Source of the DNA: Massilia varians
GTDB lineage: Bacteria > Pseudomonadota > Gammaproteobacteria > Burkholderiales > Burkholderiaceae_D
Length of the DNA stretch: 64,000 bases
Assembly (NCBI RefSeq): GCF_027923905.1
Contig: NZ_AP026966.1
Span: 3,287,001 to 3,351,000 of the forward strand
Reading direction: 5' to 3'
Below the pieces are notes generated by a model. The model saw only the letters and a list, made by a program, of their open reading frames with translations, did not search any database and was not told the DNA's origin. This document shows positions 6,642-46,385 of the stretch, piece after piece (positions within the stretch are counted from its first letter, which is position 1; the number at the start of each line of letters is the position of its first letter). The position numbers and the translations under genes are program-made.

Positions 6642-6684
6642 TTGACGCCGCCTGATGCCCGACGGTATTATGAAATCGATTTCA
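6642..6684 (+). promoter_or_regulatory. GH9 promoter with LacI-type operator
   Basis: TTGACG (6642-6647) and TATTAT (6666-6671) are separated by 18 bases. The perfect palindrome TGAAATCGATTTCA (6671-6684) begins on the last base of the -10 box, i.e. over the expected transcription start, the classic repressor position. The same palindrome is found before the TonB receptor, GH10 and GH1 genes in this window. Confidence 0.75.
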
Positions 6685-6704
6685 CAACAATGACAGGAGA
6701 CAGC

Positions 6705-8477
6705 ATGCACCACCCAGCGCCCCCATCGGGGCCTCCCCGACTCTTGCCTGCGCGGCGCCTGGCTATTGCATGCGCCGCACTCGCGCTTGCCGGCGGCGCG
6801 CATGGCGCCGGCCCGGCGGCAAGCGTCAAGCTCAACCAGGTCGGCTACCTGCCGGCCGCGCAAAAGCTGGCCGTGGTGCCCATGTCCTTGCCGAGCGACG
6901 CGCAGGGCCGCTTCGCCGTGATCGATGCCGCCAGCGGCAAGCAGGTGTTCGAGGGCAGCCTGGGCGGCGCCGCCACCTGGGATGCCTCGGGCGAACGCGT
7001 GCGGCTGGCCGACTTCTCGGCCCTGCGCACCCCCGGCAGCTACCGCCTGCGCGTGGCCGGCCTGCCGGATTCGGCGCCGTTCGCGATCAAGGCGGGCGTC
7101 TACCGTGAGCTCGACATCGCGGCGATCCGCAACTATACGCTGAACCGCACCGGCATCGCCCTCACCCCGGCCGTGGCCGGCCCCTACGCGCGCCCGCTGG
7201 CCCACCCGGACACCCAGGTACTGGTGCACGCCTCGGCCGCCTCGAAAGCCCGCCCAGCCGGCACCGTGATCGCGAGCCCGAAGGGCTGGTACGACGCCGG
7301 CGACTACAACAAATACATCGTCAACTCCGGCATCAGCACCTACACCCTGCTGGCGGCCTACGAGCACTTCCCCGAGTGGTTCGCCAAACTTCCGCTGAAC
7401 CTGCCCGAATCGGGCAACGGCCTGCCCGACATCCTCAACGAGACGCTGTGGAACCTCGACTGGATGCTCAGCATGCAGGACCCGAACGACGGCGGGGTCT
7501 ACCACAAGCTCACCAACAAGGCCTTCGATGGCATGGTCATGCCCGAGAAGGCGATCACGCCGCGCTACGTGGTGCAGAAGACCACCACGGCCACGCTCGA
7601 CTTCGCGGCCGTGATGGCCGCCGCCAGCCGCGTGCTGAAACCCTTCGACAGCCAGCAGCCGGGACGCTCGGCGCGCTACCTGGCGGCCGCCGAACAAGCC
7701 TGGCGCTGGGCCGAGGCCCATCCGAAGGTCCTGTACCAGCAACCGGCCGACATCCAGACCGGCGCCTACGGCGACCAGAGCGCGGACGACGAATTCGCCT
7801 GGGCCGCCGCCGAACTCCTGGTCACCACCGGCAAGCCGGCCTACCGCGCCCGCGCCTTTGCCGGTACGGCCATCAAGGGAACCGAGCCGGGCTGGGCCGA
7901 CGTCGGCATGCTGGGCTGGATCTCGCTTGCCCAGCATGCCGGACGCCTGCCGGCGGGCGTGGACGCGGCTCCCGTGCGCAAGCAGCTGCTGGAGGTCGGC
8001 GACCGGCTGGTCGAACGCTGGCGCGCCTCGCCCTACCGCGTCACCATGGGCGCCAAGGACTTCGTCTGGGGCAGCAGCTCGGTGATCCTGAACCAGGCCA
8101 TGATGCTGGTCGCGGCCTACCGCGTCGAGGCGCGGCCGGACTACCTGAATGCGGCCCAGTCGGCGCTCGACTACGTGCTCGGCCGCAACGGCCCGGGCAT
8201 GTCCTTCGTCACCGGATTCGGCGCCCGCTCGCCGATGCACCCGCACCACCGCCCGTCCGAGGCCGACGGCATCGAGGCGCCGGTGCCGGGCATGCTGGTC
8301 GGCGGCCCTAATCCCGGCCAGCAGGACGCCAAGGATTGCCCGGCCCCCTACTCGTCGACACTGCCGGCCCTGTCCTACCTCGACCACGTGTGCAGCTACG
8401 CCAGCAACGAGATCGCGATCAACTGGAATGCGCCGCTGGTGTACGTGGCTGCAGCCATGGAGTCGCTGCAACGCTGA
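6705..8477 (+). CDS. GH9 endoglucanase (cellulase/xyloglucanase), exported
   Basis: 590 aa from ATG 6705, preceded by ACAGGAGAC. A signal peptide ends around residue 34 (GGAHGAGP). Residues 40-130 are the N-terminal immunoglobulin-like CelD_N domain (VKLNQVGYLPAAQKLA). The rest is the GH9 alpha/alpha barrel. The GWYDAGDYNKY motif supplies the catalytic-base aspartates (D197, D200), and the C-terminal NEIAINWNAPL supplies the acid glutamate (about E569). It cleaves internal beta-1,4-glucan bonds in cellulose or xyloglucan backbones. Its promoter carries the shared LacI-type palindrome, tying it to the GH1, GH10 and TonB receptor genes. Confidence 0.9.
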   Translation: MHHPAPPSGPPRLLPARRLAIACAALALAGGAHGAGPAASVKLNQVGYLPAAQKLAVVPMSLPSDAQGRFAVIDAASGKQVFEGSLGGAATWDASGERVRLADFSALRTPGSYRLRVAGLPDSAPFAIKAGVYRELDIAAIRNYTLNRTGIALTPAVAGPYARPLAHPDTQVLVHASAASKARPAGTVIASPKGWYDAGDYNKYIVNSGISTYTLLAAYEHFPEWFAKLPLNLPESGNGLPDILNETLWNLDWMLSMQDPNDGGVYHKLTNKAFDGMVMPEKAITPRYVVQKTTTATLDFAAVMAAASRVLKPFDSQQPGRSARYLAAAEQAWRWAEAHPKVLYQQPADIQTGAYGDQSADDEFAWAAAELLVTTGKPAYRARAFAGTAIKGTEPGWADVGMLGWISLAQHAGRLPAGVDAAPVRKQLLEVGDRLVERWRASPYRVTMGAKDFVWGSSSVILNQAMMLVAAYRVEARPDYLNAAQSALDYVLGRNGPGMSFVTGFGARSPMHPHHRPSEADGIEAPVPGMLVGGPNPGQQDAKDCPAPYSSTLPALSYLDHVCSYASNEIAINWNAPLVYVAAAMESLQR

Positions 8478-8492
8478 AACAGCGAAGCAACA

Positions 8493-8533
8493 CCGATTGT
8501 TAGGCGCAAACATTTTGATTGCCTGACAATCGG
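8493..8533. other. 13-bp imperfect hairpin between GH9 and the halogenase-like gene
   Basis: CCGATTGTTAGGC (8493-8505) pairs with GCCTGACAATCGG (8521-8533), with a single G:U-type position and a 15-base loop. No T-run follows, so it is not a standard terminator. It sits 70 bases before the next start codon and could be an operator for a dimeric regulator or an RNA structure between the two cotranscribed genes. Confidence 0.45.
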
Positions 8534-8602
8534 GACCTGCTCTACACTTCGGTCGTATTGATGCGCAAAGACGCATCGACGGAAACAAGAACAGGAGACG
8601 AT

Positions 8603-10135
8603 ATGAATGACAAGCCGATCCGCCGGATCGTCATCGTGGGCGGCGGCACCGCCGGCTGGATGGCGGCGGCCCCGCTGGCGCAGCGCCTGGCGCGCCGCCC
8701 CGATGCGCCCTGCGAGGTGATCCTGGTGGAGTCGCCCGAGATCGGCACCATCGGGGTCGGCGAGGCGACCTTGCCGACCATCCGCTACTACAACGCCGCG
8801 CTGGGCCTCGACCCGGACGACTTCGTGCGGCGTACCAAGGCCAGCTACAAGCTCGGCATCGAGTTCAAGGACTGGGGCCACCTCGGCAACCGCTTCTTCC
8901 ACGGATTCGGCGATTTCGGTCCCTCGGTCGACAGGCACCCTTCGCACTTGTTCTGGCTGCGCATGGCCGCGCAGTTCGACAACATGCCGGCGCTGGAGAA
9001 CTGGTCGGTCTCGTCGATCATGGCTCGGCACAACAAATTCGTGCCGCCGCACAAGGGCACGCCCTCGATCACCGACGCCTATTCCTACGGCTACCATTTC
9101 GACGCCGGCCTGTACGCCAACTTCCTGCGCGAGTACGCCGTGGCGCACGGTGCGCAGCGCCTCGAGGGCACCATTGTGGAGGTCGAACAGCATCCGGAGA
9201 GCGGCTTCATCACGGCAGTCAAGCTGCGCGACGGCCGCCGGATCGAGGGCGACCTGTTCGTCGACTGCTCCGGATTCCGGGGCTTGCTGATCGAAGGGGC
9301 ACTGAAGGCCGGCTACGATGACTGGAGCGAGCAGCTGCCCTGCAACAGTGCGCTCGCCGCGCCCTGCGCCAGCGTGCCCGCCCTGACGCCGTATACCCGC
9401 TCCACGGCCAAGGAATCGGGCTGGATCTGGCGTATCCCGTTGCAGCACCGCACCGGCAACGGCCACGTCTACAGCAACGCCTTCACCAGCGACGCGCGGG
9501 CACGCGAGCTACTGCTCGACTACCTCGACGGCGCCGCGCTCGACGAGCCGCGCCAGCTGCGATTCGTCACCGGCCGCAGGCGCAAGTCGTGGGTCAAGAA
9601 CTGCGTCGCGGTGGGCTTGTCCGCCGGCTTCGTCGAGCCCCTGGAATCGACCAGCATCAGCCTGATCGAAACCGCGGTCGGCAAGCTGGTCGAGCTGTTC
9701 CCGGACCGCGACTGCCGTCCCGAACTGGCCAACGAGTTCAACCGCTACATGGGCGTGCGCTACGAATCGGTGCGCGACTTCATCGTCCTGCACTACAAAC
9801 TGACGAAGCGCGACGACTCGGAATTCTGGCGCTACTGCGCCAACATGCCGATTCCCGATACGATTCGCCACCAGATCGAGCTGTTCCGCGAAACCGGGCG
9901 GGTCACGATCCTGGACCCGCACGGCTTCGCCGAGCCTTCTTTCGTGGCCATGCTGATGGGGCTGGGCGCAGTGCCGAAGCGTTACGATCCTTTCGTGGAT
10001 GCGGTGGACATCCGCGAGGTGCACGGGCACTTCGCCGGTGTGCGCGACATGATCGCGCAGGCCGTGGACCGGATGCCGACCCATGACGCCTACATCGCGA
10101 GCCAGGTCAGGGCGGCGAACCAGGCCGCCGCCTGA
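8603..10135 (+). CDS. flavin-dependent tryptophan-halogenase family protein
   Basis: 510 aa; ATG 8603 follows AACAGGAGAC. N-terminal FAD motif IVIVGGGTAGWMAA, then ESPEIGTIGVGEATLPT. The lysine in ASYKLGIEFKDW is at the position of the catalytic lysine of tryptophan halogenases. GWIWRIPL matches the family WxWxIP motif that blocks monooxygenase activity. The C-terminal half has LSAGFVEPLESTSI, typical of the family. It needs reduced FAD from a separate reductase. The substrate is unknown. Such genes often occur beside TonB receptors and glycan hydrolases in Caulobacter- and Xanthomonas-type genomes (known from general family knowledge), and this one follows GH9 by 125 bases. Confidence 0.88.
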   Translation: MNDKPIRRIVIVGGGTAGWMAAAPLAQRLARRPDAPCEVILVESPEIGTIGVGEATLPTIRYYNAALGLDPDDFVRRTKASYKLGIEFKDWGHLGNRFFHGFGDFGPSVDRHPSHLFWLRMAAQFDNMPALENWSVSSIMARHNKFVPPHKGTPSITDAYSYGYHFDAGLYANFLREYAVAHGAQRLEGTIVEVEQHPESGFITAVKLRDGRRIEGDLFVDCSGFRGLLIEGALKAGYDDWSEQLPCNSALAAPCASVPALTPYTRSTAKESGWIWRIPLQHRTGNGHVYSNAFTSDARARELLLDYLDGAALDEPRQLRFVTGRRRKSWVKNCVAVGLSAGFVEPLESTSISLIETAVGKLVELFPDRDCRPELANEFNRYMGVRYESVRDFIVLHYKLTKRDDSEFWRYCANMPIPDTIRHQIELFRETGRVTILDPHGFAEPSFVAMLMGLGAVPKRYDPFVDAVDIREVHGHFAGVRDMIAQAVDRMPTHDAYIASQVRAANQAAA

Positions 10136-14263: not shown

Positions 14264-15952
14264 TTAATAGTCGTAGGTGCGCATCGTGACCTTGAGCACG
14301 GTCGGCGCGGCCGGCAGGTTCAGGCCGTAGTCGGTCTGGTCGCCGTTCCAGTTGCGTTCCATGATCCATTTACCGGCGGCGTCGAAGCGTCTCTCCTCCA
14401 CGCGCGCCAGCATGGCGGGCTTGTCGCCGGCAGGCGCGAACTTGACGCGTGCGCGCTGGCCGGCCAGCACGAATTCGCCAGGGCCGAGCTGCGCGATCGC
14501 CACGCCGCCTCCCGGCAGCTCGGTGCCCTCGGCGTATTCATTCTTGTCGCGCAAGTACTGGCGCTCGCCGAACTGGAACTCGCGGAACGAGACCGTGGCC
14601 TTCCAGCCGTCGAGGGCGACCGCCTGCTCGGCCCGGTCGTCGCCCTCCGCCACGCCATGGGTGCGGCCTTCGAAGGCCCAGCGCGCCCACAGGCGCGCCA
14701 TCGGCGCCAGGGTGGCGTACACCTGGGCGAAAGGCTCGACCATGCGGCGGTCGCTGTGCTTCGAGCCGAGCGGGTAGTTGCTGTAGCTGGCATAGTCGAT
14801 GCCGAAGGGGACCACGCCAAGCGCGCCCCTGCCGACGATCTGCCAGACGTAGCGCGCGTATCCCGCGGCATTGCCCATTTCCGCCACCAGGAGCGGGTTG
14901 TCCGGACGCTGAAAGCCGGCCAGCACCCCATTCACCTTGGCGGACTCCGGCATATAGATGTCGGGCGCGGCGAAGTCGATGTGGGGCGCCGCCGCCTTGT
15001 AGATGCCGAGCACGTCCCAGGTCGGGCCGCCGCTGGCGAAGTCGCCCTTCCACGGCGTGGCCGGCTGCCCGGGCTGGCCCGGCTCGCGCAGCGCATTGTT
15101 GACGAACATCGGCAGGTCGTAGACCGCGCGGCCGGCCTTGGCAATCTCCTCGATATAACTGGCGATCGCCCAGCTATGGAAGTACTGGCCGGCATAGTCG
15201 CCGTACACCTCGCTCCAGCTGCCTTGCGACGGACGTCCGGCGGGCGCGGGTTGGCGCGCCAGAACCGCCGCGGGAACCGCCTGGCGGAATGCGGCCTCGG
15301 CGCGCACGCCATGGTCGCGCACCAGGCCGTAGGTGCCGACCTCGTTCTCGACCTGCACCATGATCACGGTGCGCTTGCCGGCGTCGATCTTGCGGATGTG
15401 CCGCATCAAGGCCACGAACGCCTTCTTGTCGGCCGCCAGGGTGGCTTCGCCGAAGGGCGACAGGCAGTAGCTGGGCTTGCCGTCCGCGTCGAGCATGCGC
15501 GGAAAGCGCCGGTTGTCGAATTTCACCCATGCCGGGGTATACGCCGGGCCGGTGTTCTTCCAGGTGCCGAACCACAGCAGCACCAGGCGCTTGCCATGAG
15601 TCCTGGCCTGGGCCACCAGGGTGTCGACGTAGCTGAAGTCGAACCTGCCCTCCTCCGGCTCGAGCTGTTCCCATGCGACCGGGATCGCCAGGGTGTTGGC
15701 ATGCGCATCCTTGAGCGCGGCCCAGACCTTTGGCAGCGCTGCCGGGTAGTTGCTGGAGTTGTGGGCCTGACCGCCCAGCACCAGGAAGGGGGCGCCATCG
15801 ACCAGCAGGGCATGGCGTCCCTCGCGCTCGACAATGCGCGGCAGATCGGGAGTGAAGGCGGCGGCCGGACCCGCTTGAACGAGCTGGGCAAGAAGAATGG
15901 GGACGGCGACGGCAAGGCGCGGCGCGCCGCGGCGACGGAAAGGAAGGCGCAT
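14264..15952 (-). CDS. GH35 beta-galactosidase (xyloglucan type)
   Basis: 562 aa from ATG 15952, which has AGGAGAC upstream. A signal peptide ends at about residue 32 (QAGPAAAF). The GH35 barrel has its acid/base in MVQVENEVGTYG (about E204) and nucleophile in LLVAEMGN (about E358). The C-terminal 150 residues form a beta domain with an ERNWNGDQTDYGLN segment, as in the short bacterial GH35/DUF5597 proteins such as Cellvibrio Bgl35A. It should remove galactose from xyloglucan side chains. It is the first gene of the GH35-GH31-esterase operon and is divergent from the TonB receptor. Confidence 0.88.
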   Translation of the reverse strand: MRLPFRRRGAPRLAVAVPILLAQLVQAGPAAAFTPDLPRIVEREGRHALLVDGAPFLVLGGQAHNSSNYPAALPKVWAALKDAHANTLAIPVAWEQLEPEEGRFDFSYVDTLVAQARTHGKRLVLLWFGTWKNTGPAYTPAWVKFDNRRFPRMLDADGKPSYCLSPFGEATLAADKKAFVALMRHIRKIDAGKRTVIMVQVENEVGTYGLVRDHGVRAEAAFRQAVPAAVLARQPAPAGRPSQGSWSEVYGDYAGQYFHSWAIASYIEEIAKAGRAVYDLPMFVNNALREPGQPGQPATPWKGDFASGGPTWDVLGIYKAAAPHIDFAAPDIYMPESAKVNGVLAGFQRPDNPLLVAEMGNAAGYARYVWQIVGRGALGVVPFGIDYASYSNYPLGSKHSDRRMVEPFAQVYATLAPMARLWARWAFEGRTHGVAEGDDRAEQAVALDGWKATVSFREFQFGERQYLRDKNEYAEGTELPGGGVAIAQLGPGEFVLAGQRARVKFAPAGDKPAMLARVEERRFDAAGKWIMERNWNGDQTDYGLNLPAAPTVLKVTMRTYDY

Positions 15953-16559
15953 GGTCTCCTGCTTGTTATCGGTGTCGGTGGTGTCGGCACTTCTTGCCAG
16001 CATCCTAAGCCAGCCGTATGCAGCAATGCAAGGAAAATGTTCGCGCTACCATACAATTTCCCGGCATGCGCGGGTGATCGCTCTTGAAAAACGGAACAGG
16101 GACGCTGCGATTGCTGCGCCGCGGGGCTGGACGCCTGCCGCAATCACCTCGGCCGCAGCAAGCGGGACCCTCTCCCGCTTATGCGAACCGCATGAAATCC
16201 CGACTGGAGCAGCGGGTTCACGACAGTCGGTGCACAAAAAGCGCATTTCTATGAAATCGATTTCTTGACCTTGTTCAATGTATTGCGTACTGTAGAGAAC
16301 CAGTGAGGCCGCTTGCCGCAAACCAGCTGCTTCCGGATGCCTGCCCGGGCACCTATACATGGCAAGGACCCGGCTTCGCGCCTCACCGTTTGCACGTCCT
16401 GCCGAATATGCTGTTGTGAATTAGCAAAATCTACAGTCTTGTGAGGTTTCTGCCGAAAATGTATGGTAGCGTATAACAACCGGTGTTAGTAGAGGCTCGG
16501 TGCAGTGCTGGCGCTTGACAACTCAGCACATAAAAAAATTACCTATATCAGGAGACAAC
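15953..16559 (+). promoter_or_regulatory. divergent control region of GH35 operon and TonB receptor
   Basis: No gene is seen in these 607 bases. TGAAATCGATTTCT (16252-16265), one base off the shared palindrome, overlaps a -35 box TTGACC (16265-16270), with TACTGT (16288-16293) 17 bases on. A second candidate closer to the receptor is TTGTGA (16439-16444), 17 bases, TATGGT (16462-16467). TAACAACCGGTGTTA (16474-16488) is a near-palindrome at its downstream edge. The receptor start is preceded by AGGAGACAAC. Confidence 0.6.
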
Positions 16560-19500
16560 GTGAGGAAGTTCCAGAAAACAGCGATCGCCGCAGCGGTCGC
16601 GCAGATTGCCGTCCTCTATAGCGGCGCAGCATGGGCACAGACCGCCGCTACCGGCGCGGAGGAGCCGACCGTCCCCGCGACCGCGGTCGTCAAGGTGTCC
16701 GGCCAGCGCGCCGCACTGCAATCGGCCCAGCAGCTCAAGCAGAATTCCGACGAGCTGGTCGATTCGATCGTCGCCGAGGACATCGGCAAGCTCCCGGACC
16801 GTTCGGTCACCGAGGTGCTGCAGCGTATCGCCGGCGTCACCATGGACCGCAACATGCCGGGCGACCCGAATCGCCAGGCCGTCGAAGGCTCCGGCGTGTC
16901 GGTGCGCGGCCTGACCTACGTGCGCTCGGAAGTCAACGGCCGCGACGCGTTCTCGGCCGGCGGCGGCCGCTCGCTCGGCTTCACCGACGTGCCGCCGGAG
17001 CTGATGGCCGGCGTCGATGTCTACAAGAACCCTTCCGCCGAACAGATCGAAGGCGCGCTCGCCGGCCTGGTCAACTTGCGCACGGCCATGCCCTTCGACT
17101 TCGCGGGCTTCAAGGGCTCGCTGGGCGCCTCGCAAACCTATTCGGAGCTGAACAAGGCCAAAGGTCCGACCGGCACCGTGCTGTTGTCGAACCGCTGGAC
17201 CTCGCCCATCGGTGAATTCGGCGCCCTGGTCAACTTCGCGTATGCGAAGAACCCGACCCGGACCGACGCCATCGGCATCGATCCCTTCTTCCCGCACGTG
17301 AATTCCCGCAACCCGGCCCAGTACAATCGCGACGCGACCAAATGGCTGCCGTTGGGCGGCGGCCTGCGTTCGCAGGAGTTCGAACGCGTTCGCCGCGGCG
17401 ACTATGCGGCCTTCCAGTGGCGTCCGAACCGCGACCTCACCGCGGCGCTGACCTACTTCAAGACGCAGTACGAGGAAGACCTGAGCGAGCGCGTCGTGGC
17501 CTCGTCGGAAGACAAGTGGTACCAGCAGGTGGCCGGCGCCGACGTCACCTATGACGCCAATGGCGCCTTCCAGAAAGGCACGATCTCGAACCCGACCTAT
17601 GGCGGCTCGCCGTTCAACAGCTCGCGCCGCATCAACCAGCGCGACTCCGGCACGCGCGACCTCGCGCTGAACGTGCAATGGCGCGTGACGCCGGACCTGA
17701 CCTGGACCAACGACTTCCAGCACGTCCGTTCCACCACCGAAGGCTTCGATGCCGACGTCTCGACGGGTTTCATCCTGCCGAACCAGTCGATCGACCTCAC
17801 CGGCAGCGTCCCGCAGATCGGCCTCGGCTCGGCGCAGTTCATGGCCGATCCAAAGAACTACTACTGGGCCTACACCCAGGAGGCGCTGGACCGCGCCAAG
17901 GCTACCCAGAAGGCCTGGCGCAGCGACGTCAAGTTCAGCTTCGACGACCCGGTGCTGCGCGATATCCGCTTCGGCGTGCGCCTGGCGGACCGCGAAGCCG
18001 AAAACCGCAAGGCCCAGAAGTTCTACAACTGGTCGTCGATCACCTTCCCGTGGATGGAAGGCTGGCAGATCCCGGGCGTCGCACGCCTGAACGACCCGCG
18101 CTTCTCGGGCGGCACCGAGCTGGCGCAGATCCCGAACTTCTTCGACGGCAAGGTCTCGGTTCCGGCGATGCTGTATCCGACCGATGCGCTGGCACGCGAC
18201 TTCCCGAACGGCTGGACCAAGCTGCACGGCTACCACACCACCCTGTGCGAAGAACAGAAGGCCGCCCAGGGCTGGGGTACCTGCGACGCGTGGAAGCCGT
18301 CGACCTTCGACACGCCGTCGGCGCTGAACACGCAGACCGAGAAGACCCAGGCCGCCTACACCCAGCTGCGCTTCGGCTTCGACGACCTCAAGTACCCGAT
18401 CGACGGCAACATCGGCGTGCGCTACGTGAGGACGAAGAACACGACGAACGGCTATATCGCCTACGACCCGACCAACGTCAGCATTCCGGGCGACGTGCCG
18501 GTGGAAGGCGTGAACACTCTGGTCAACATCGCCAAGTTCGAGACCCCGCGCAGCACCGATACCTCGTACAGCCACTGGCTGCCGAGCCTGAACCTGCGCC
18601 TGAAGTACAACGACAAGCTGCAGTTCCGCTTCGCCGTCGCCAAGTCGATGGCGCGCCCGGACTTCAACCAGCTGCAGTCGCTGACCACCCTGACCTCGCC
18701 GGCGAACCAGCTGACGATCAAGGATCCGGTCACGCTCCAGGACCAGCGCGTCGTCTTCAGCGGCAACAACCTGACCGGCAGCAGCGACGGCAACCCGCTC
18801 CTGAAGCCGACCACGGCGACCAACATCGACCTGACCGCGGAGTGGTACTTCGCCAAGGCCGGTTCGCTGACCCTGGCGGCGTTCAACAAGGACATCAAGG
18901 ACATCATCGTCAACACCACCTACGGTTACACGGTGAAGGATGTCAACGGCAAGAACCAGACCTTCGCGGTCACCCATCCGATCAACGGCGCCCACGGCTT
19001 TGCGCGCGGCTTCGAGATCGCGCACCAGCAGTACTACGACTTCGTGCCGGATTGGCTGCGCGGTATCGGTACCCAGGCCAGCTGGACCTATGTGTCGAGC
19101 GAGCGCAAGCTGGACAATCCGGTGCCGGCCGCGTTCTGCGCGGGCAGCGACCAGTCGAACATGAACCTGTCGATCAACGGCTGCGACACCGACGGACGCC
19201 CGTTCGGCAACACGCCGCTGCAAGGCCTGTCGCGTCACACGGTCAACTTCGCGGTCATGTACGAAAAGAATGGTCTGTCAGCGCGCCTGGCGTACAACTG
19301 GCGCTCGCGTTACCTGGTTGCCGTCAACACCTGGGGCAGCCGCGGCAACAACGGCCTGAACACGAACCCGGACGCCGGCCCGCGCTTCCTGATCCCGACG
19401 CCGAACAACGACCAGGCCTACGGCCTGCCGCTGTGGCAAGACGATTACGGCCAGCTGGACGGTTCGATCTTCTACGACTTCACGGACAGGTTCCGTGTCG

Positions 19501-19628
19501 GCCTGGCAGCCCAGAACCTGAACAACGCCAAGACGCGCCAGCTGATGCAGCAGCACGCCGGCATGTTCACCCGCCAGCTGTTCATGAGCGGGCCGCGCTA
19601 CACGCTCCAGGCCTCGTACTCGTTCTAA
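16560..19628 (+). CDS. TonB-dependent outer-membrane receptor for oligosaccharides
   Basis: 1022 aa from GTG 16560, chosen because AGGAGACAAC precedes it and a signal peptide ([27 protein letters not shown] region) starts there. The plug domain at residues 50-170 has [19 protein letters not shown] and GVSVRGL. The remainder is a 22-strand barrel ending in the aromatic-terminated strand LQASYSF. This is the Caulobacter/Xanthomonas-type receptor class used for plant-polysaccharide fragments. The context (GH31/GH35 operon, divergent) and the LacI-type operator upstream indicate import of xyloglucan or cello-oligosaccharides into the periplasm. Confidence 0.92.
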
Positions 19629-28598: not shown

Positions 28599-28602
28599 GT
28601 TC

Positions 28603-34200: not shown

Positions 34201-35349
34201 TCAGCGCGCAGCCTGGGAGCGGCGCGCACCCGCGGGTGCGACCTTGGCGCCGGCCTTGACGGAGGGGAGCCGCGCCGGCGGCCGGGTGCGCGGGGCGGCA
34301 TCCGACTGGCGCCGCACCAGTTCGAATGCCATCGGCACGCGTTCCGGCGGCGCCTCTTCGCCCTCGCGCAGCGCGCGCACGCGCCGCACCAGCGATTGCA
34401 CCGCTTCGCGCGCCATCTCGGCGATCGGCTGGCGCACGGTGGTCAGTTCGGGCCAGATGGTGGTGGCCAGGGCCGAGTCGTCGAAGCCGGTGACGGTGAG
34501 GTCGCCCGGCACGTCCAGGCCCAGGCGGTGCGCGACCGCGACGGCAGCCGCAGCCATGTCGTCGTTGCTGGCGAAGATCGCGGTCGGGCGCTCCTCGAGA
34601 GCCAGCAGGTGTTCCGCCGCATCCAGGCCGGAGCGGTAGGTGAACATGCCCTGCACCACCAGGTCTTCGGCCTTGTCGGCGCCCTTCTCTTCGATGGCGG
34701 CGCGGTAACCCGCCAGGCGGCGGCCGCTGGCGGTCTGGTTCGGGTGGCCGACGATGAAGCCGATGCGCTGGTGGCCGAGGGTAATCAGGTGGCGCGTCAT
34801 CTGGTAGGCGGCATCGTAGTCGTCGATGCTGACGGCGCCCACGCGCTCGTCCGGCGAACCGCAGGCGACCACCACGGCCGGGATGTCGGCCTCGGCCACG
34901 CAAGCGATCACGGCTTCGCTGTCGCACAGCGGCGGCGGCAGGATGATGCCGTCCAGCCCGTTGCCGATCAGGCGCCGGGTCTGCTCTTCCTCGTGCTGCC
35001 CGGCTTCGCACTTCTCGACGAACAGCTGGACGTTGTTCAGGCCGGACTGGCTCAGCAGGCCGACCAGGAATTCGCTGAGGTAGGCGGCGCTCGGGTTACT
35101 GTACAGGAAGCCGACCCGGATCGGCTTGGAGCCGGCCAGGTTGCGCGCCTCCTGGTTGGGAGTGTAGTTCAGGGCGGCGACCGCCTCGGCGACCTTGCGC
35201 CGCGTGCTCTCGCGCACCAGGCCCTTGCCGTTCATGACGCGCGACACCGTCATCGGCGAGACGCCGGCCAGCTTGGCGACGTCGGCCATGGTCGGCTGGC
35301 CGCGGCGCTCCACGTCTTCCTGGATGGCTTTCACGTTGGCTTTACTCAT
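34201..35349 (-). CDS. LacI-family transcriptional regulator (probable XylR)
   Basis: 382 aa. The helix-turn-helix is at residues 20-42 (TMADVAKLAGVSPMTVSRVMNG), followed by the hinge (NYTPNQEARNLAGSKPIRVGF). The C-terminal two-thirds is the sugar-binding fold (PAVVVACGSPDERVGAVSIDD; VTGFDDSALATTIWPELTTV). Recognition residues Pro-Met resemble the Lys-Met of E. coli GntR, whose operator is of the TGTTACC type; a matching site lies upstream of the xylose operon. Extra N-terminal (about 18 aa) and C-terminal (basic, Ala/Pro-rich) extensions are unusual. It is divergent from GH10. Confidence 0.9.
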   Translation of the reverse strand: MSKANVKAIQEDVERRGQPTMADVAKLAGVSPMTVSRVMNGKGLVRESTRRKVAEAVAALNYTPNQEARNLAGSKPIRVGFLYSNPSAAYLSEFLVGLLSQSGLNNVQLFVEKCEAGQHEEEQTRRLIGNGLDGIILPPPLCDSEAVIACVAEADIPAVVVACGSPDERVGAVSIDDYDAAYQMTRHLITLGHQRIGFIVGHPNQTASGRRLAGYRAAIEEKGADKAEDLVVQGMFTYRSGLDAAEHLLALEERPTAIFASNDDMAAAAVAVAHRLGLDVPGDLTVTGFDDSALATTIWPELTTVRQPIAEMAREAVQSLVRRVRALREGEEAPPERVPMAFELVRRQSDAAPRTRPPARLPSVKAGAKVAPAGARRSQAAR

Positions 35350-35461
35350 GTTCTCGCGGACCCCTGTGGACGATATGACTCTGTTGTTTGCGCTATCTTA
35401 GCACAACCACAAACCACGACGCATGTCCCTCGCTCAGCGGCGCAACGTGCGATGCCTGCTT

Positions 35462-35475: not shown

Positions 35476-35537
35476 TTCCGCCGAAGATTGCGCTAACATT
35501 CCTGCGCCACAATCACAATACGGAGACACGGAACAAC

Positions 35538-36704
35538 ATGACGACACGACGCACCATGCTGCAGGCGCTTGCCGGCGCCGCCCTCCTGCCCACAGGATTC
35601 CCCGCACTGGCGGCCGCCCCCGCGGGCGAGGCGCTTAAGGACATTGCAAAGCGCAAGGGCCTGCGCTTCGGGACCGCGGTCGGCGCCGGAAAGAACCAGT
35701 TCGGCGACCCGGCCTACCGCGTCCTGGTCGAACGCGAGTGCAACATCATCGTGGCCGAAAACGAGATGAAGTGGCAGGCCCTGGCGCCGACGCGCGATGC
35801 CTACCGTTTCGGCCCGGCCGACGCGATGCTGGACTGGGCCGAGAAGAGCGGCATGGCGATGCGTGGCCACAACCTGTTCTGGCAGCCCGAGAAATGGCTG
35901 CCGGCCTGGATCGCGAAGGAGAACTTCGGCAAGGACAGGGCGCGCGTGGAAACCCTGATGCGCAAGCACGCCCAGACGGTGTGCGCCCACTACGGCACCC
36001 GGATCCAGAGCTGGGACGTGATGAACGAAGCAGTCGACCCGGCCGACGGCAAGATGCGCCAGAACGCCCTCACCCGCGCGTTCGCCGGGCCGTCCGGCGC
36101 CGTCGAGCAGGTGGACCTGGCCTTCCGCCTGGCGCACGAGTACGCGCCGCACGCCCAACTGGTCTACAACGACTACATGCGCGAGGACAGCGGCAGCGCC
36201 AAGCACCGCGCAGGCGTGCTGCGCATGCTGGCCGAACTGAAGCGGCGCGGCACGCCGGTCCATGCGCTCGGCCTGCAGGCCCACATCGGCTCCTGGGACG
36301 AGAGCAAGAAGCGCGGCCGCGAAGACATGCTCGCGTGGCGACAATTCCTGGACGAAGCCACCGCCATGGGCTACGACCTGTTGATCACCGAGTTCGACGT
36401 CAACGACCGCGCCCTGCCGGCCGACATCGCCAAGCGCGACGCCGGCGTGGCGGCCGCCGCGCGCGAGTTCCTCGACGTGACGCTCTCGTATCCGCGCTTG
36501 ACGGACTTCCTGCTGTGGGGCCTGGCCGACCATATCAGCTGGCTGCAGACCTGGGACGAGGCGCCGCGCAAGGACAAGCTGGCGCAGCGTCCCCTGCCCT
36601 ACGACGCCCAGCTGCGCACCAAGCCGCTGCGTCAGGCGATCGCGGACGCCATGCGGGCGATGCCGGAGCGCCGGCAGGCACGCTCGGACAAGTCAGTTAC
36701 CTAG
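35538..36704 (+). CDS. GH10 endo-1,4-beta-xylanase, exported
   Basis: 388 aa from ATG 35538 (GGAGAC upstream). A Tat-like or Sec signal (TTRRTMLQALAGAALLPTGFPALAAAP) is followed directly by the GH10 barrel. NEMKWQ and HNLFWQ line the substrate cleft; the acid/base is E164 in SWDVMNEAVD, the nucleophile E285 in LLITEFDVND. No carbohydrate-binding module is present. It cuts xylan into xylo-oligosaccharides for the GH3/GH43 enzymes and the xylose operon. It is divergent from the XylR-like gene, with a shared LacI-type palindrome between. Confidence 0.92.
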   Translation: MTTRRTMLQALAGAALLPTGFPALAAAPAGEALKDIAKRKGLRFGTAVGAGKNQFGDPAYRVLVERECNIIVAENEMKWQALAPTRDAYRFGPADAMLDWAEKSGMAMRGHNLFWQPEKWLPAWIAKENFGKDRARVETLMRKHAQTVCAHYGTRIQSWDVMNEAVDPADGKMRQNALTRAFAGPSGAVEQVDLAFRLAHEYAPHAQLVYNDYMREDSGSAKHRAGVLRMLAELKRRGTPVHALGLQAHIGSWDESKKRGREDMLAWRQFLDEATAMGYDLLITEFDVNDRALPADIAKRDAGVAAAAREFLDVTLSYPRLTDFLLWGLADHISWLQTWDEAPRKDKLAQRPLPYDAQLRTKPLRQAIADAMRAMPERRQARSDKSVT

Positions 36705-39507: not shown

Positions 39508-39827
39508 GGCTTGAAGCGGCGGTCGAGCTCCGCCTGGGCGAAAAACGCACTCGCCAGACGCAGAATCTCGTTTGTCTTGCGCAGCTCGCGCACCTCTCGC
39601 TCCAGGGCTTTAATGCGCTCTTCTTCGGCAGTAGTCGGACCAGGACGCTGGCCGGTATCACGCTCTTGCTGGCGCACCCAGCGGCGCAGCGTCTCAGGAG
39701 TGCAGCCGATCTTGGCCGCGATCGACGTGATCGCTGCCCACTGCGATTCGTACTCGCTGGCTGCTTCGCTGACCATGCGCACAGCGCGCTCGATGACTTC
39801 GGGAGAATATTTCGGTTGCTTCTTCAT
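39504..39827 (-). CDS. IS3-family OrfA (helix-turn-helix subunit)
   Basis: 107 aa. The helix-turn-helix ([19 protein letters not shown]) is followed by a leucine-zipper-like coil ([22 protein letters not shown]). Standard IS3 OrfA length. Its 3' end overlaps OrfB. Confidence 0.9.
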
Positions 39828-39877
39828 AGCTCCATTTTCTCAAAGAACGGAGCCTCTACAAAACCCGGGGCGATTCA

Positions 39878-42800
39878 GTAGCTCTGCCGACTGCCCGTTT
39901 CATCCGGTTGGCCAGGTCGTACTCGAACACCTGGCTGTTGCGCTGCGTGACGTTGCCGCGCACGTCGTAGCCGTAGGTGACGTTGAAGCCCGGCGGACCA
40001 TTCGTGATGCTGTCCAGGCGATTAGTCGTCGCGTTGATGTTGTGGAGCGTATTGCGCGCGCTGATGCCGCCGGTGATCGTGGTGCTGGTCAGGTTGTCCA
40101 GCACATCGTAGCCATAGGTGGCAGTACCCCACATGTTCGGCGCGGTGGCTGTTTTCAGACGCTCCAGGCCATCGTAGCTCATTGAGCGGTTGCTCACGTT
40201 CGACGGCAGCAGGTCAAGAATCGAAGTGACGTTGCCGCTGGCGTCGTAGCCATATTGGTCGTCGCGCACCCCGCCCAGGTCGGTCGACCGCAGAGGCAGG
40301 CCGCGCTCGTTCTGGGTGGTGCTGTGCTTGATGCCGGTGGTGCTGCCGTAGTTGAAGCTGGCGATGCCGCCGTTGGGGTGGTGCAGGATCGCGTTGGCAT
40401 AGGGGCCGACCTGGCGCGGTTCGCCCAGGGCGTTAGGGTTGTAGGCGACCGGCGTGTTATCGGGATAGGTCAACTGCGCGAGCGAGCCGTTGGAGTCGTA
40501 GTTGCGGCTGATGTTGTAGGTCACGCCGCCATAGACCAGGCTTTCTCTCTCGAGCAGGCGCCGCTTGTTGTAGGTATTGGTCCAGACCGCGCCATCCGAG
40601 CTGACCGTGTTCAGCAGGCCGTCAGGCGTGAGAGTGACCGAAACCGCCGGGCTGTTGTCGCCGTAGGTCAAGCCGGTCGACCGGTTACGCGCGTCGTATT
40701 GATAAGTGATCTTGCTCGCTGCAGGCACGCTGGCCGTGTCGCACGATGTCGTCGACGGCAAGGCGAGGCCGCTGGCGCGCCAAGAGACATTGTCGGCGCC
40801 GTCGTAGTCCTGCACGGTCGCGCCGTTCTCCGGCTCGATGGTCTTGCACAGGCGCTGGGCGCTGTCGTAGACGTAGCGGCGGGTGACGCTCTTCGTGTTG
40901 TCGCTACGCCTGATCGAGAGTGGCTTGCCGAAGACATCGCGCGTGATCGAGACATCTGCGCGCTCGGGCCCGAGAATGTTCGTGATCGACGCTTGCGATG
41001 GTTCGTCGAAAGCCTGATATCCATACACGGTAGCGTAGCCACGCGGACTAGTTACCGTGGTCGTAAACCCGAGGTCGTAGGTGGTCCTGGTCCAGGCGTA
41101 ACCGTCCGGCTCCCCGACTTCGCTTTTCGCAGCTTTCGCAGTCTGGCGCCCAAGGGCGTCGTACGCATAGTAGACCCCTGGGCCGATCTGGCCGTAGGTC
41201 CGTCGCGGATAGGACTCGAAGTTCAGACGCCCGGCGGAGTCATACAGCATCTTGGTCGTGCTCAGGGTCGCGGTGACGTCGCTGTCGTCCCAGCGCTCGA
41301 CGTAAACGGGACGCAGCAGCGCGTCGAAATAGGTAACCGTGCGCGCCGTGCCGGTAGAGATCTGCTGGCGCCAATGACCAGCGGCGAGGTCGAACTGCGC
41401 GCCGGTCGACTGCCAGGTCGAGACCGTTGTCGGCGCCCAATTAACAGTGTCGCCCGTGGGATGATTGATCGACGCCAGGCGGCCCATGGCATCGTAGCCA
41501 AAGGTAGTGGTGAAGCTTGCCTCGTTGGTCAGCGAAGTGATCTTGCCGATATTGTTGACGACAGCGGATTCGAACTTGCTATCGGCATAGTCGATTCGCT
41601 GGGCGATGCCGCGCTTGTAGCTCGAGAACGTTGTTAGCTGGTTTTTCCCGTCCTTGACCGTCGCGACCGTGCCATCGGTGTTGTACGTGTACGTCTGTTG
41701 CAGCTTGCCGAATGTACTGACAGTTTCGAGGTTGGCGGTGGTGGCGTTGTACTGATTTAGCACCATCGACCGGCCCGTGCTGGCCTCTTTGACTTCCTTG
41801 ACCTGACCCAGGACCCATTTGGACAGGTTGTTTTCGTAGCTCGTGTTTTCGGTGCGCGCAAAACCGAGGCTACTCGAACGTTGGATCTGCGTTGGTTTGA
41901 CATAGGTGTCGAATGCGGTCGCTTCCCAAGTAAAGGTCGTTCCCTGTTGGGTGATAATCCGCTTGTCCAGCGGCGCCGGGCGGCTATCCATTGCCGAGTC
42001 ACCCGAATTACTTGGATCGCCCACGCCGAAGTAATTCGGATAGGGACCTGCGCCATAGGCTCGGTAACGGTTGGACGTCGTCCGCAAGGCCGATCTTTCG
42101 TCCCAGCCTGCTTCCGTCAGCTCCAGACGTCCTTCATTCACATCCTTGTGATTCCCGAACGTGTAGCGGGTAACGAAACCTTCCGGAGCAGTCACGCGGA
42201 CGGTTTTCGTTTCGGGACAACTGATGCAAGTATCCCAGCTGGCGTTGGACTCGCCATAATCGATTGTCCAGGATAGTGAGCTCAGCCCTGGTCCGGAAAT
42301 CGTCTTATTGATAACAGACTGGGTGACGAAGTAACGGGGGACTACGGGAGGGGAGTCGGTACTAAAGCACCCCGTCTGCACCTTTGACCGCCCGTGCAAG
42401 GTTGGACGGAGCGTAAACGTTCCGGTTGCACCGGATGGATGCACGATAATGCCGGTGTAATCGATTGCGGTGAACATCGGCACGTCATAGCAGCCACCGT
42501 TGTTCTGGAACGTAACTGGCTTGAGCAAGTTGTGGAAGCTGTCTGGGAAAGTCCAGGACGAGTTGTCGGGCTGCGTCACCTTGCGTAGATCGAAAATCGT
42601 CGATGCTGAACCTTGCACCGGGAATTCGGCGTAGTCATAGGTCCAGGTACGCATCCCATCGCTGACGGTCTTGACCACGTCCGCCAAGCCCAAAGTATTC
42701 GGTACGTAAGTGAGGACAAGCGACCGCCCGTCGCTGGAATCGATCCGTGTGAGATTGCGGGACTTAGCCGGATCTGGGTTATATGTGTATGTAACCCAGT

Positions 42801-43722
42801 TGCCGTAGCGGTCTTCAACCCTAGTAGCAAGGATCCAGATTTCATCCCGTTGCAAGGTAAACGTGGTCGCAGCGTTGTCGGGCGAAGGATTCTCGGGAAG
42901 AAAAGGCGTTCCTCCGCTTTCCTTTTCTGGCGGTGGCGCCGTTCCTTTCTGCTGTTGCTCTAGCACCTGGGCTGCCACGGTGAGCGCACCTTGCGGCTCA
43001 GGGGAGGGCTTGGCCAACGTTTGCACGGGGTAACGGACATACCAGTCGAAGTAGTACTTCGTTCCATCCGGTGCGATAGCCAGGAAACCTTCGCCTCCGG
43101 TCACCGGGACCGTCGTGGTTGAAGGGTTTTTCAGCGTCGTCAGGCAGGACACTGCCCACAAGTTGGAAGTGACGATCGGATAGTTTGCAGCAGGCGCCGG
43201 GACATGGGGGTTGGAGGGATCGCGGAGCAGTAGTCGCTGCTCGCCCTTGCCTGGCACGTAGAGATAACTGCCTTTCCAGAATTCGTCGTAATCCCAGTAA
43301 GCGCTACCATTATTGGATGTCGCCGTGGGCGGTGCACCAAATTTCGAACAGCGAGTCATACCTTTGAAGCCGTCTTTCCATCCGTCGGAACGCGCGAAAA
43401 TACCGTACACGTGAGGGACGTCGAGTTCCCATTGGCCAAATGGCCGGCTTGTCTCGCCCCGTTGGCCAGTCTTGATGCGGCGTCCAATAGATACTGGCAG
43501 AGTGTTATTCCCCGGAAGGCTGACATCTGTCTGCGTGAAGTCTAGGGCGCCGTTGTAGAAATTAATTGAGTCTCCGAAAAGGTCTGTTCCAACGGCAGCA
43601 ACGGCGCTTGGCGAGAGGATTTGCTTCCTCTGCTCTTCAAAGGAAGTGATGTTCTGACCGGAGGCGATCAATGAAACGAACTGAAGAGAAACGAAAACGA
43701 ACGCACGAGAGGGACTACGCAT
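39878..43722 (-). pseudogene. Rhs/YD-repeat protein, N-terminal 1280 residues, cut by IS3
   Basis: Starts at ATG 43722 (GTG 43734 is the alternative) with a signal peptide (AFVFVSLQFVSLIASGQN). Residues to about 500 are a secreted N-terminal region. The rest is a run of YD repeats (TFGYDAMGRLASINHPTG, ITYQYDARNRSTGLTYGD, ATYGYDVLDNLTSTTITG, FEYDLANRMKRAVGRAT). The signal peptide and the lack of PAAR or VgrG genes point to a Sec-exported or wall-associated YD-repeat toxin rather than a T6SS-loaded one. In the present sequence the frame runs 22 bases into the IS and stops. Confidence 0.85.
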
Positions 43723-43852
43723 AAGGCACCCCACTGTCTTTGAATGGTTGAGATAACTCGACAGTAAGTGTTTAGTTTCGTGCGATCATCTCCCTCGCCG
43801 TAGCTGGCCTTTGTTCCGTGCAAAGGCTATGCTGGGCGAGTTGATTGCTGGG

Positions 43853-44874
43853 TTCAGCAGTCCCGGCATTCAATCGCACCAGGAGCAATTGGCAGCATGA
43901 GTTCACGTATTCACCCGCAGGCCCGTACCACACCGAAAATCCGGCAAGAGATCAAGGATTCGGGCCTGTCGGACCGGCAGGCCGCCAAGGTCTTCAACAT
44001 CAGCCGCGCTACCGCCCGCAAATGGCTCAAGCGCGACGACGTGCAGGACCGCTCGCACCGTGCCCATACCCTGCACACGACCCTGAGCGCAGCGCAGGAG
44101 AACATTGTGCTCGCGCTACGCCAGTCGCTCTTCCTGCCGCTCGACGATCTGCTGTTCATCACGCGGCAATACATCAATGCCGACGTCTCCCGGTCGGGCA
44201 TCGCACGCCTGCTCAAGCGCGAGGGCATGTCGCGCCTTGAAGACGTGATCCCGAAGGCCGAAGGCGAAACGATCTCTCCGAAGAAGACCTTCAAGGACTA
44301 CGAGCCAGGCTTCATTCATATCGACATCAAGTATTTGCCCCAGATGCCGGACGAGACCTCGCGCCGTTACCTGTTCGTCGCCATCGACCGCGCCACGCGC
44401 TGGGTCTTCATGCACATCTACGGCGACATGACTGACAAGAGCAGCGTCGATTTCCTGCGCCGCTTGAAGCTGGCCTCGCCGATCAAGATCAGCAAGATCC
44501 TGACCGATAACGGCTCGCAATTTACCGACCGTTTCGCTACCAAGGACAAGAAGCCAAGCGGGCAGCACGCCTTCGACGTGGCTTGCGCCGCACTGCCTGC
44601 CGAGCACCGCCTGGCGCCGCCGCGGCATCCGCAAACGAACGGCATGGTCGAACGCTTCAACGGACGCATCAACGAACTGCTGCAGCAAACCCGCTTCGAC
44701 AGCAGAGCCGACCTGGAAACGACCTTGCTGAACTATTTGAAGCTGTACAACCACCACATCCCGCAGCGTGCACTCGACGCCAAAACGCCCATCCTGGCGC
44801 TCAAGGAATGGCAGCAGAAACGGCCAGAATTATTCGTTAAACGGGTCTATGAACAGGCGGGACTTGACAGCTAA
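43853..44874 (+). mobile_element. IS481-family insertion sequence (ends approximate)
   Basis: The right end carries GACTTGACAGCTAA with the transposase stop at its edge. Its complement (TGTCAAGTCCCGCC) is matched at the left by CAGCAGTCCCGGC near 43855. The ends are imperfect and no certain target duplication is seen, so boundaries are within a few bases. Confidence 0.6.
43897..44874 (+). CDS. IS481-family transposase (copy 1)
   Basis: 325 aa. The N-terminal helix-turn-helix (SDRQAAKVFNISRATARKWLKR) is followed by the rve core with DDE residues in FIHIDIKYLPQ, ILTDNGSQFTD and NGMVERFNGRI. It ends ELFVKRVYEQAGLDS. CACCAGGAGCAATTGGCAGC precedes the ATG. It shares the core with the second IS481 copy at 52-53 kb but is clearly diverged, so the two are different elements. 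Confidence 0.92.
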   Translation: MSSRIHPQARTTPKIRQEIKDSGLSDRQAAKVFNISRATARKWLKRDDVQDRSHRAHTLHTTLSAAQENIVLALRQSLFLPLDDLLFITRQYINADVSRSGIARLLKREGMSRLEDVIPKAEGETISPKKTFKDYEPGFIHIDIKYLPQMPDETSRRYLFVAIDRATRWVFMHIYGDMTDKSSVDFLRRLKLASPIKISKILTDNGSQFTDRFATKDKKPSGQHAFDVACAALPAEHRLAPPRHPQTNGMVERFNGRINELLQQTRFDSRADLETTLLNYLKLYNHHIPQRALDAKTPILALKEWQQKRPELFVKRVYEQAGLDS

Positions 44875-45230
44875 TCGCTACGTCGTAATTACGCTGCTCG
44901 CATAATATCTTGCAGTTTCACAATCATCCAATGGGAAAATGACCGCCTCGGCGCGGAACTCTTCGCGTACGTGCGTTTTTCTGATTTGCTTATGTTGACT
45001 GCCTTTGATCAGTATTTCAGACGGGAGTGTGCGAAAATTTCAGGCTACCTCACTCACGAACCGAATTGGCTATGCAAGATACACTCGCTGCTAATCACAA
45101 TTCAACGTGAGCTTTCCATGCAGCCGGACGCGATACAAGGATCGCGCACGCTGTAGTGCTAGGACTCCCGGCAGCAGCCAACGCACAAGCGTGCCGCTAG
45201 TAGCAGCCAAAAACACTTCAAGGCGAATCC
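44875..45230. other. AT-richer intergenic region, no supported gene
   Basis: 356 bases between the IS481 element and the lacI-type gene. A 61-codon plus-strand frame (44971-45156) has no ribosome binding site or recognisable sequence. I see no promoter or repeat of note. Confidence 0.5.
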
Positions 45231-46244
45231 TTAGATCGCCCGCACCGACTCGCGTACCACCAGGCTGGGCTCCGGCACTTCGAGCTCGAGCGGCTGCTGG
45301 CGGATCATGCGCAGGATTGCCCGCCCCAGGCGCTGGCCGACGTCGAACAGCGGCTGGCGCACCGTGGTCAGGGGCGGCGTCGTGTACATCGAGCTGTGCA
45401 GGTCGTCGAAGCCGACCACGGAGACCTCGTCCGGCACCGTGATGCCGCGCCGGAACAGGGCCAGGCGGGCGCCATAGGCGGTCAGGTCGTTGGCCGCGAA
45501 GATGGCGGTGAAGCGCTGGTTCGAGGCGAGCAGGCGCTCGACCGCCCGCAAGCCGCCGGACTCGGAAAAGTCGCCCTGCAGCACCAGCTTGCGCTGCGCC
45601 TTGATCCCGTGTTTGGCCAGGGTGTCGCGGTAGCCGGCCAGGCGCGCCAGCGCATCCCGGTGGTCGGAGGGGCCGGCGATGAAGGCGATGTCGCGGTGGC
45701 CATGCGCCACCAGGTGCTCGACCGCGTCGCAGGCGCCGCGGTAGTTGTCCAGTGAAAAGCCATAGGTGCGCGGTCCCTGCAGGTCGCGCCCGAAGACGAC
45801 GATCGGCACCTGCTCCGACAGCGCCAGGATCTGCGCGTCTTCCAGGTTCCCGCTCAGGATCACCAGGCCGTCCACCCGGCGCGCGATCAGAAGTTCGATC
45901 CGCTCCGCCTCCTCGTCCGCATGCCAGTGGCCGGACACGATCAGCGGCGCATAGCCGGTGCCCTGCAGCGCATCGTCGACGCCGGCCATGGCGTCGGCAA
46001 AGTAGCCCGAGGCCAGCGACTGGGTCAGGATGCCGACGGTGCGCGAGCTGCCGGTCTTGAGGTTCTGGGCCAGCACGTTCGGCTTGTAGTTGAGGCGCTC
46101 GATGGCCTGCTCGATGGCCTGGCGCTTGTCGTCCGACACCTTGGCGGTGCCGTTGAGCAGGCGCGACACGGTGGCCGCCGACACCCCGGCCACGCGGGCG
46201 ACTTCATGGACGGTGGCCGTCGGCCGTTCGGATGCTTTTCTCAT
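45231..46244 (-). CDS. LacI-family regulator (probable beta-glucoside/cellobiose repressor)
   Basis: 337 aa from ATG 46244; the frame is open upstream, but the helix-turn-helix fixes the start. HTH at residues 11-33 ([22 protein letters not shown]), hinge [22 protein letters not shown], then the sugar-binding fold ([41 protein letters not shown]). Recognition residues Ala-Ala before TVSR are like those of CcpA and GalR (x-Ala-TVSR), whose sites are TGAAA-x-CG-x-TTTCA-like. That matches the palindrome between this gene and GH1. It probably represses gh1-glk-MFS and the other palindrome-bearing genes. Confidence 0.9.
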
Positions 46245-46342
46245 GCAGGGATGGGGCCAGAACGGCAGCTCGGGGCCGCGGCCGGGGGTGGAAAATTGCC
46301 AGTATAGCAGCAGCCAAGCCGTCACCGCCCGCCAAAATGTCG

Positions 46343-46385
46343 TTGACACCCGCTCCGGCACGCGCATATGATGAAATCGATTTCA
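46343..46385 (+). promoter_or_regulatory. GH1 operon promoter with LacI-type operator
   Basis: TTGACA (46343-46348), 18 bases, TATGAT (46367-46372), then the perfect palindrome TGAAATCGATTTCA (46372-46385). The arrangement is the same as at the GH9 gene: the palindrome begins on the last base of the -10 box. Confidence 0.8.

Follow-up and report, generated by a model that had tools for sequence, protein, structure and literature searches.

The region considered here is a 64,000-nucleotide stretch of Massilia varians DNA (the window), corresponding to bases 3287001-3351000 of a single-contig genome of 5,575,375 bp (contig NZ_AP026966.1, assembly GCF_027923905.1), in which four copies of a 14-bp palindrome lie at the control regions of a cellulose, xyloglucan and xylan gene block. 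Two regulators are encoded in the window, LacI-A (34201..35349, minus strand) and LacI-B (45231..46244, minus strand), which belong to different orthologous groups, are each divergent from one of the four palindrome copies and both possess PF00356 together with PF13377/PF00532 above cut-off, as is typical of the LacI/GalR family. Exact copies of the palindrome, TGAAATCGATTTCA, are found at 6671-6684, ahead of a GH9 endoglucanase gene (6705..8477, plus strand; Pfam PF00759, E 7e-88; start codon picked by eye downstream of AGGAG), and at 46372-46385, between LacI-B and a GH1 beta-glucosidase gene (46454..47788, plus strand; NCBIfam BGL 605 bits, cut-off 478.5; start codon by eye), which leads a run with a glucokinase (47829..48863, plus strand; PF02685) and an MFS transporter (48850..50211, plus strand; PF07690). 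The copy with one mismatch at 16252-16265, TGAAATCGATTTCT, is upstream of a TonB-dependent receptor (16560..19628, plus strand; NCBIfam TIGR01782 630 bits, cut-off 310; start codon by eye) that is divergent from a GH35-family beta-galactosidase-like gene (DUF5597; 14264..16003, minus strand; GH35_fam 492 bits, just below the cut-off of 500), and the other such copy, AGAAATCGATTTCA at 35462-35475, is upstream of a GH10 xylanase gene (35538..36704, plus strand; Pfam PF00331, E 3e-77; start codon by eye). A previous sequence-only reading of this DNA, which attributed all four copies to one sugar-responsive repressor of glycan degradation, had given exactly these coordinates and sequences, and the Pfam assignments agree with the target families it named, namely GH9, TonB receptor/GH35-like, GH10 and GH1.

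Inspection of the control regions, with promoter boxes taken as consensus matches, reveals a shared arrangement at the two exact copies. The GH9 promoter (6642..6671, plus strand) combines a -35 box TTGACG (6642-6647) and a -10 box TATTAT (6666-6671) across an 18-bp spacer, while the GH1 promoter (46343..46372, plus strand) combines TTGACA (46343-46348) and TATGAT (46367-46372) across a spacer of the same length, and in both the operator begins with the T that closes the -10 box; the proposal that the same architecture occurs twice is thus borne out. Neither the TonB nor the GH10 copy is arranged in this way, the LacI-B-type site being located on the -35 element instead. At the TonB receptor the operator and a -35-like TTGACC box overlap by one base, a T that closes the former and opens the latter, and this overlap accounts for the one-base departure from the palindrome, and at GH10 the LacI-B-type site covers a weak -35 with a LacI-A-type operator (AGATTGCGCTAACA on the plus strand; 35485..35498, minus strand) lying over the presumed -10, its centre 23 bp from that of the LacI-B-type site.

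With an even palindrome, a central CG and a position upstream of sugar genes at four promoter regions, TGAAATCGATTTCA has the form of a LacI-family operator, the central CG being named as a characteristic feature of such operators in the available part of a LacI-family regulon survey (PMC4052901). A whole-genome scan with one mismatch, which had been suggested along with the sequence-only reading, recovered four places only, all inside the window and within 40 kb, as against 0.086 expected from base composition and none for the reversed pattern genome-wide. Within the window, the 4 matches at up to two mismatches compare with a shuffle mean of 0.07, and 4 were reached in 0 of 100 shuffles. Four uniformly placed sites would fall within the observed 39.7-kb span with a probability near 1.4e-6, a null that is only rough because intergenic DNA is richer in A+T. 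At exactly two mismatches six further places are present in the genome versus about 2 expected, and at up to three mismatches there are at least 121 as opposed to 22 for the reversed control. Of the six two-mismatch places, five fall within a called open reading frame (ORF) or at its end and one falls just past an ORF, which led to the rejection of a wider regulon in this genome; no glycan gene was recognised from N-termini beside any of the six.

Comparison of regulator and operator across homologues supports LacI-B as the probable owner of the TGAAATCGATTTCA motif. For this purpose the best 80 of 528 relatives from named genomes were taken, 79 of them with upstream DNA that was used; the relatives in named records are mostly from Massilia and other Oxalobacteraceae, and the best among the matches listed is from Massilia alkalitolerans DSM 17462. 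The general form of the palindrome, TGAAANCGNTTTCA, is perfect within 600 bp upstream in 68 of these 79 homologues and present with up to one mismatch in 74, as against 2 of 79 in an equal length of downstream DNA (2 of 75 when only control stretches of full length are counted). The one-sided A variant seen at GH10, AGAAATCGATTTCA, also occurs upstream of LacI-B homologues themselves. Two operator copies 21 bp apart were detected in 22 of the 79 upstream regions. This corresponds to about two turns of the helix, which the part of the LacI-family survey available interprets as cooperative binding (PMC4052901). Further, a divergent -35/-10 pair with the -10 box ending on operator base 1 accompanies 40 of 71 perfect operators (38 with an 18-bp spacer), compared with 0 of 71 in the direction of the LacI gene and 26 of 15,800 random positions; it is present in 16 of 19 cases in the SAATVSR helix class, to which the window's regulator belongs, and in 22 of 23 in the SPATVSR class.

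The recognition helix of LacI-B is SAATVSR, confirming how it had been described earlier, and the operator covaries with it. In homologues with this helix 17 of 19 perfect sites read TGAAATCGATTTCA; homologues with SPATVSR have, on either strand, TGAAAACGATTTCA (12) or TGAAAACGGTTTCA (8) among 23, and those with SPSTVSR have TGAAAACGTTTTCA (15) or TGAAAACGATTTCA (9) among 29, i.e., TGAAAACG[T/A]TTTCA in 24 of 29 on either strand. Among 37 same-genus genomes, exact TGAAATCGATTTCA is present in all 16 with a LacI-B at 74% identity or more and in 3 of the 21 others, one of which (G018) yielded only a fragment of a LacI-B-like gene in the search; the helix reads AA in 15 of the 16 site-bearing genomes above that threshold, and in the sixteenth via its named copy (L140). 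Additionally, at least one kind of GH1, TonB, glucokinase, MFS or GH9 relative flanks LacI-B in 71 of 80 loci (GH1 in 56, glucokinase in 53, MFS in 42, TonB in 40 and GH9 in 5), a linkage of beta-glucosidase, glucokinase, transporter and TonB receptor genes of the kind that marks a BglR-like regulon. Hence, the earlier view of the palindrome as a LacI-family operator marking a glycan regulon stands, with the protein at 45231-46244 as its best candidate owner. Many upstream regions of the SPATVSR class (L027-L039) were also seen by eye to contain a 13-bp odd-spaced element nearer the LacI start, e.g., TGAAAGATTTTCA or TGAAAGCGTTTCA, which perhaps serves autoregulation.

All four window sites recur in related genomes. 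The GH9 site has exact copies in 5 relatives, and the exact site together with a TTGAC[G/T]-18-TAnnnT promoter is found in 6 of 6 genomes; in another clade (L106, L108, L128, L129) GH9 is located beyond GH1/glucokinase, in the same direction from a LacI-B-type site. At the TonB/GH35 site all four aligned genomes carry the block TGAAATCGATTTCTTGACC without change and also TATGGTAGCGTnnAACA, the latter within a second conserved element upstream of the receptor (TATGGTAGCGTATAACA; 16462..16478, plus strand), which shows XylR-like half sites. For the LacI-A/GH10 region, 15 upstream rows of LacI-A were compared, and 8 of them retain the core GAAATCGATTTC. GH10 adjoins LacI-A in three of these eight (the window, G003 and G001), and in G012 and G022 (L135, L136) LacI-A and GH10 are separated by a GH67 alpha-glucuronidase gene, and the double-operator promoter would there drive GH67 together with GH10. 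Across 61 genomes 33 exact TGAAATCGATTTCA sites were recovered, 15 of which are associated with LacI-B, either with the GH1 run or with a TonB receptor leading the run, 6 with GH9, 4 with a locus for a ROK-family regulator and a TonB receptor, 4 with an HGSNAT-like gene and 4 with other contexts. The TonB, ROK and HGSNAT copies in this tally were linked by BLAST to Pfam-tested ones, Pfam being applied to one or two copies.

The last two named settings are of interest in their own right. In four relatives (L111, L112, L118, L119) the exact palindrome is flanked by the gene for the ROK-family regulator and that for a large TonB receptor (in L119, SapC and cupin genes lie further on), and the regulon looks wider in these organisms. 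In four others (L113, L116, L117, L123) it is placed just before or at the start of a gene for an HGSNAT-like membrane acetyltransferase, an unexpected target for a glucan regulator. The counterparts in the present genome are distant, with a TonB match of only 56% for the ROK/TonB locus and a match of only 39% for the HGSNAT-like gene, and neither has the palindrome at up to one mismatch, there being none genome-wide outside the window.

The second regulator, LacI-A, appears to recognize a different motif. Its footprint was derived from the top 15 matches, all at 84% identity or above and from 14 genomes, in a search of 37 genomes, with matches at 76% or less left out, and TG[TG]T[AT]GCGCAA is present upstream in 15 of 15 rows. 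The conserved box, TGTTAGCGCAA(A/T)C, resembles the xyl-box TGGTAGCGCTAACA reported for XylR of Caulobacter and Xanthomonas in the accessible part of the source (PMC10380989). LacI-A has an SPMTVSR helix and lies beside xylose-oxidation genes, its neighbours including GH3, an ABC sugar transporter and oxidative-xylose enzymes, among them a D-xylose 1-dehydrogenase above the NCBIfam cut-off. Besides the operator over the presumed GH10 -10 box, sites of this type are located near the LacI-A start (TGTTTGCGCTATCT on the plus strand; 35385..35398, minus strand) and upstream of GH35, where the xyl-box-like TGGTAGCGCGAACA (16038..16051, minus strand) differs from TGGTAGCGCTAACA by one mismatch. Wherever both the LacI-A box and GAAATCGATTTC are found in a LacI-A upstream region (8 of 8), their centres are 23 bp apart. 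A genome-wide scan for TGTTAGCGCAAAC at up to one mismatch gave six places, each at the start of a sugar or glycan gene or close to it, namely GH10, GH43, GH3, GH115 (two ORF pieces), a GDSL esterase and an MFS transporter.

Taking together the sites, their rarity, conservation and promoter position, the link of LacI-B to its motif and the separate conserved motif of LacI-A, we infer binding, repression, effectors and a joint control logic along the following lines. It is probable that LacI-B is a BglR-like repressor of the four control regions and that two of these are shared with the XylR-like LacI-A. A LacI-B dimer would bind TGAAATCGATTTCA and be released by a product of beta-glucan breakdown; a beta-glucoside such as cellobiose is the likeliest candidate, and glucose is a possible one. 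The operators of GH9 and GH1-glucokinase-MFS cover the -10 end and the likely transcription start, and hence LacI-B binding is proposed to block RNA polymerase at these promoters. For the TonB receptor, whose neighbours are GH35/GH31/CE2, and for GH10 it would act from an operator on the -35 region. LacI-A would be a second repressor with sites at the TonB/GH35 and GH10 control regions, and the GH10/LacI-A and GH35/TonB promoters look jointly controlled because LacI-A operators lie there too. The cellulose-type genes might accordingly answer to the beta-glucoside signal alone and the xylan/xyloglucan genes to the beta-glucoside signal and xylose together. A more specific version, put forward tentatively and with somewhat more doubt than belief, is that GH10 (or GH67-GH10), and probably GH35/TonB, operates as a two-input gate in which two LacI proteins sit on the -35 and -10 elements at the fixed 23-bp spacing, the xylanase requiring both beta-glucoside and xylose; the two proteins may also bind cooperatively at the double-operator promoter. 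Thus, of the original idea of one sugar-responsive repressor, the glycan regulon and LacI-B as best owner are retained, whereas its exclusivity is not, given the LacI-A motif at two of the four control regions.

Several observations weigh against this reconstruction. Genome kinship inflates the homologue and genome counts, in which shared ancestry was left in. Five of the 79 LacI-B homologues lack a site within 600 bp, the genome G001 has LacI-B with no site between it and GH1, and 4 of the 33 exact sites are unexplained by the regulon or lie at a contig end. The -10 arrangement is nearly absent from the SPSTVSR class (2 of 29), and is therefore not general but conserved in two of three classes. 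A scan with TGAAANCGNTTTCA at one mismatch finds 8 genome places against 3 for the reversed pattern, the four additional ones comprising two of the six two-mismatch sites as well as 2128687 and 5283948. The start of the TonB receptor is about 295 bp from its site and the second conserved block is nearer, hence this site may control little. At GH10 the outer bases of the site vary among relatives, 7 of 15 LacI-A upstream rows lack the GAAATCGATTTC core and the G025 site has two mismatches; LacI-B ownership is weakest here because relatives do not retain the palindrome's outer T/A. Finally, the LacI-A box at up to two mismatches shows no enrichment (47 places versus 66 for the reversed control), and its weaker matches accordingly mean nothing.

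One alternative consists of two separate regulons, in which LacI-B owns only the GH9 and GH1 sites, and the near-copies at TonB and GH10 belong to LacI-A or to another reader of GAAATCGATTTC that disregards the outer T/A. In its favor, the LacI-A/GH10 region keeps the 12-bp core with varying outer bases in eight rows, and both near-copies lack the -10 arrangement and lie beside LacI-A-type boxes. However, LacI-A upstream regions conserve a different box in all 15 rows and GAAATCGATTTC in only 8, the one-sided A variant is also found upstream of LacI-B homologues, and the odd base at TonB is explained by the TTGACC overlap; this alternative is hence regarded as unlikely. Ownership of all four sites by LacI-A was rejected, since its orthologues conserve another box and since two genomes (G002 and G015) have LacI-B and the site with only a distant LacI-A match. 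Less probable than the two-regulon alternative is a dual or activating role of LacI-B at the sites overlapping a -35 (TonB, GH10), combined with repression at those overlapping a -10. LacI-B sites do occupy two promoter positions, -10/+1 and -35, and some LacI-family proteins, such as Cra, both activate and repress; however, a dimer occupying the -35 hexamer would ordinarily be an obstacle to RNA polymerase, and nothing in the data calls for activation. An origin of the four copies by chance or by spread of a repeat or mobile element, with no regulatory role, has next to no probability: insertion sequences and an RHS gene do lie inside or near the interval, but it is contradicted by the whole-genome rarity, by the lack of a shared repeat in 300 bp on each side of the four sites and by the finding that other species conserve the sites at the same promoters.

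LacI-B-type control as favored here, i.e., repression of four control regions by a BglR-like protein, may be compared with known systems. In the part of the source available, the LacI-type BglR of Shewanella has predicted sites at divergent beta-glucosidase/transporter operons and a TonB-type outer-membrane receptor, and glucokinase is part of its pathway (PMC2996990). By described gene content the LacI-B regulon is like it in uniting beta-glucosidase, transporter, glucokinase and TonB receptor, and unlike it, to the extent of that description, in adding GH9, GH10 and the GH35/TonB genes of the xyloglucan/xylan block. The preferred reading of LacI-B is that of a BglR-like repressor acting locally on beta-glucan use. 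By sequence, its top solved structure is 3dbi (listed as a LacI-family regulator), which we take to be E. coli AscG, followed by CcpA entries (3oqo), with 3brq, named AscG, lower in the list; AscG controls beta-glucoside genes. The likeness to CcpA raised at the outset holds for the motif type, as cre boxes have a TGAAANCGNTTTCA-like form, and fails for function: LacI-B scores 191 bits against the 442-bit cut-off of the NCBIfam CcpA equivalog, and CcpA is a global regulator with HPr as co-repressor, whereas sites of LacI-B at up to one mismatch number only four here. In operator form and in its probable way of acting, LacI-B resembles PtxS of Pseudomonas, a LacI-family repressor that, in the available part of the account, binds TGAAACCGGTTTCA over the transcription start (PMC11678583), likewise a 14-bp palindrome of the TGAAANCGNTTTCA form; as described there, it differs in its effector (2-ketogluconate), its kgu target genes and two central bases. 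Judged by box and gene context, LacI-A is like XylR in its TGGTAGCGCTAACA-resembling box and adjoining xylose/xylan genes, and unlike XylR, as far as the source describes it, in sharing control regions with a second LacI protein (PMC10380989). The TGAAATCGATTTCA palindrome was found in no paper of the literature searched, and none of the titles listed there fits a regulon of Massilia or Oxalobacteraceae, a search that left RegPrecise and other outside databases beyond its scope.

The remaining genes of the window supply further context. A gene of the tryptophan-halogenase family (8519-10135) lies directly 3' of GH9, a pairing kept in G003, G001 and G025, and a YcaO protein with an OsmC domain (4324-6624) is divergent from GH9. 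The stretch 20987-33919 carries genes for an aldehyde dehydrogenase, an ABC sugar transporter, a dehydratase, a lactonase, a D-xylose dehydrogenase and an FAH-type protein, a set that fits oxidative (Weimberg/Dahms-type) xylose breakdown. Integrase-core transposases, an IS21-type istB pair and an RHS-repeat gene are found at 38605-44874 and 52073-55395. The mobile genes at 38605-44874 separate LacI-A/GH10 from LacI-B; the regulator genes are about 1.4-1.6 kb apart in G003, G025 and G001, and the gap between them in the window therefore looks like an insertion. Towards the end (59142-64000) there are a second GH3, an acetylesterase-like gene and a GH43 gene running off the window, with a LacI-A-type box 986 bp past the end (genome 3351986; L222), near the GH43 start. 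The two ORF pieces of the GH115 gene near another such box (L225) are in different frames.

In biological terms, this soil-dwelling member of the Massilia group seems to keep a block of cellulose, xyloglucan and xylan genes under a sugar-sensing repressor, a familiar kind of gene control of which the LacI-B regulon is a well-supported new example. The analysis provides a proposed operator and regulator for this block in Massilia and its relatives within the Oxalobacteraceae. Additionally, the helix/operator pairs in the 79 homologues (SAATVSR, SPATVSR and SPSTVSR, with different central bases) form a data set on LacI-family specificity, and the double-operator GH10 promoter would be a natural two-sugar gate amenable to reporter work. 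If the gate is real, the joint beta-glucoside and xylose signal to which it responds would be a signature of the intact plant cell wall.

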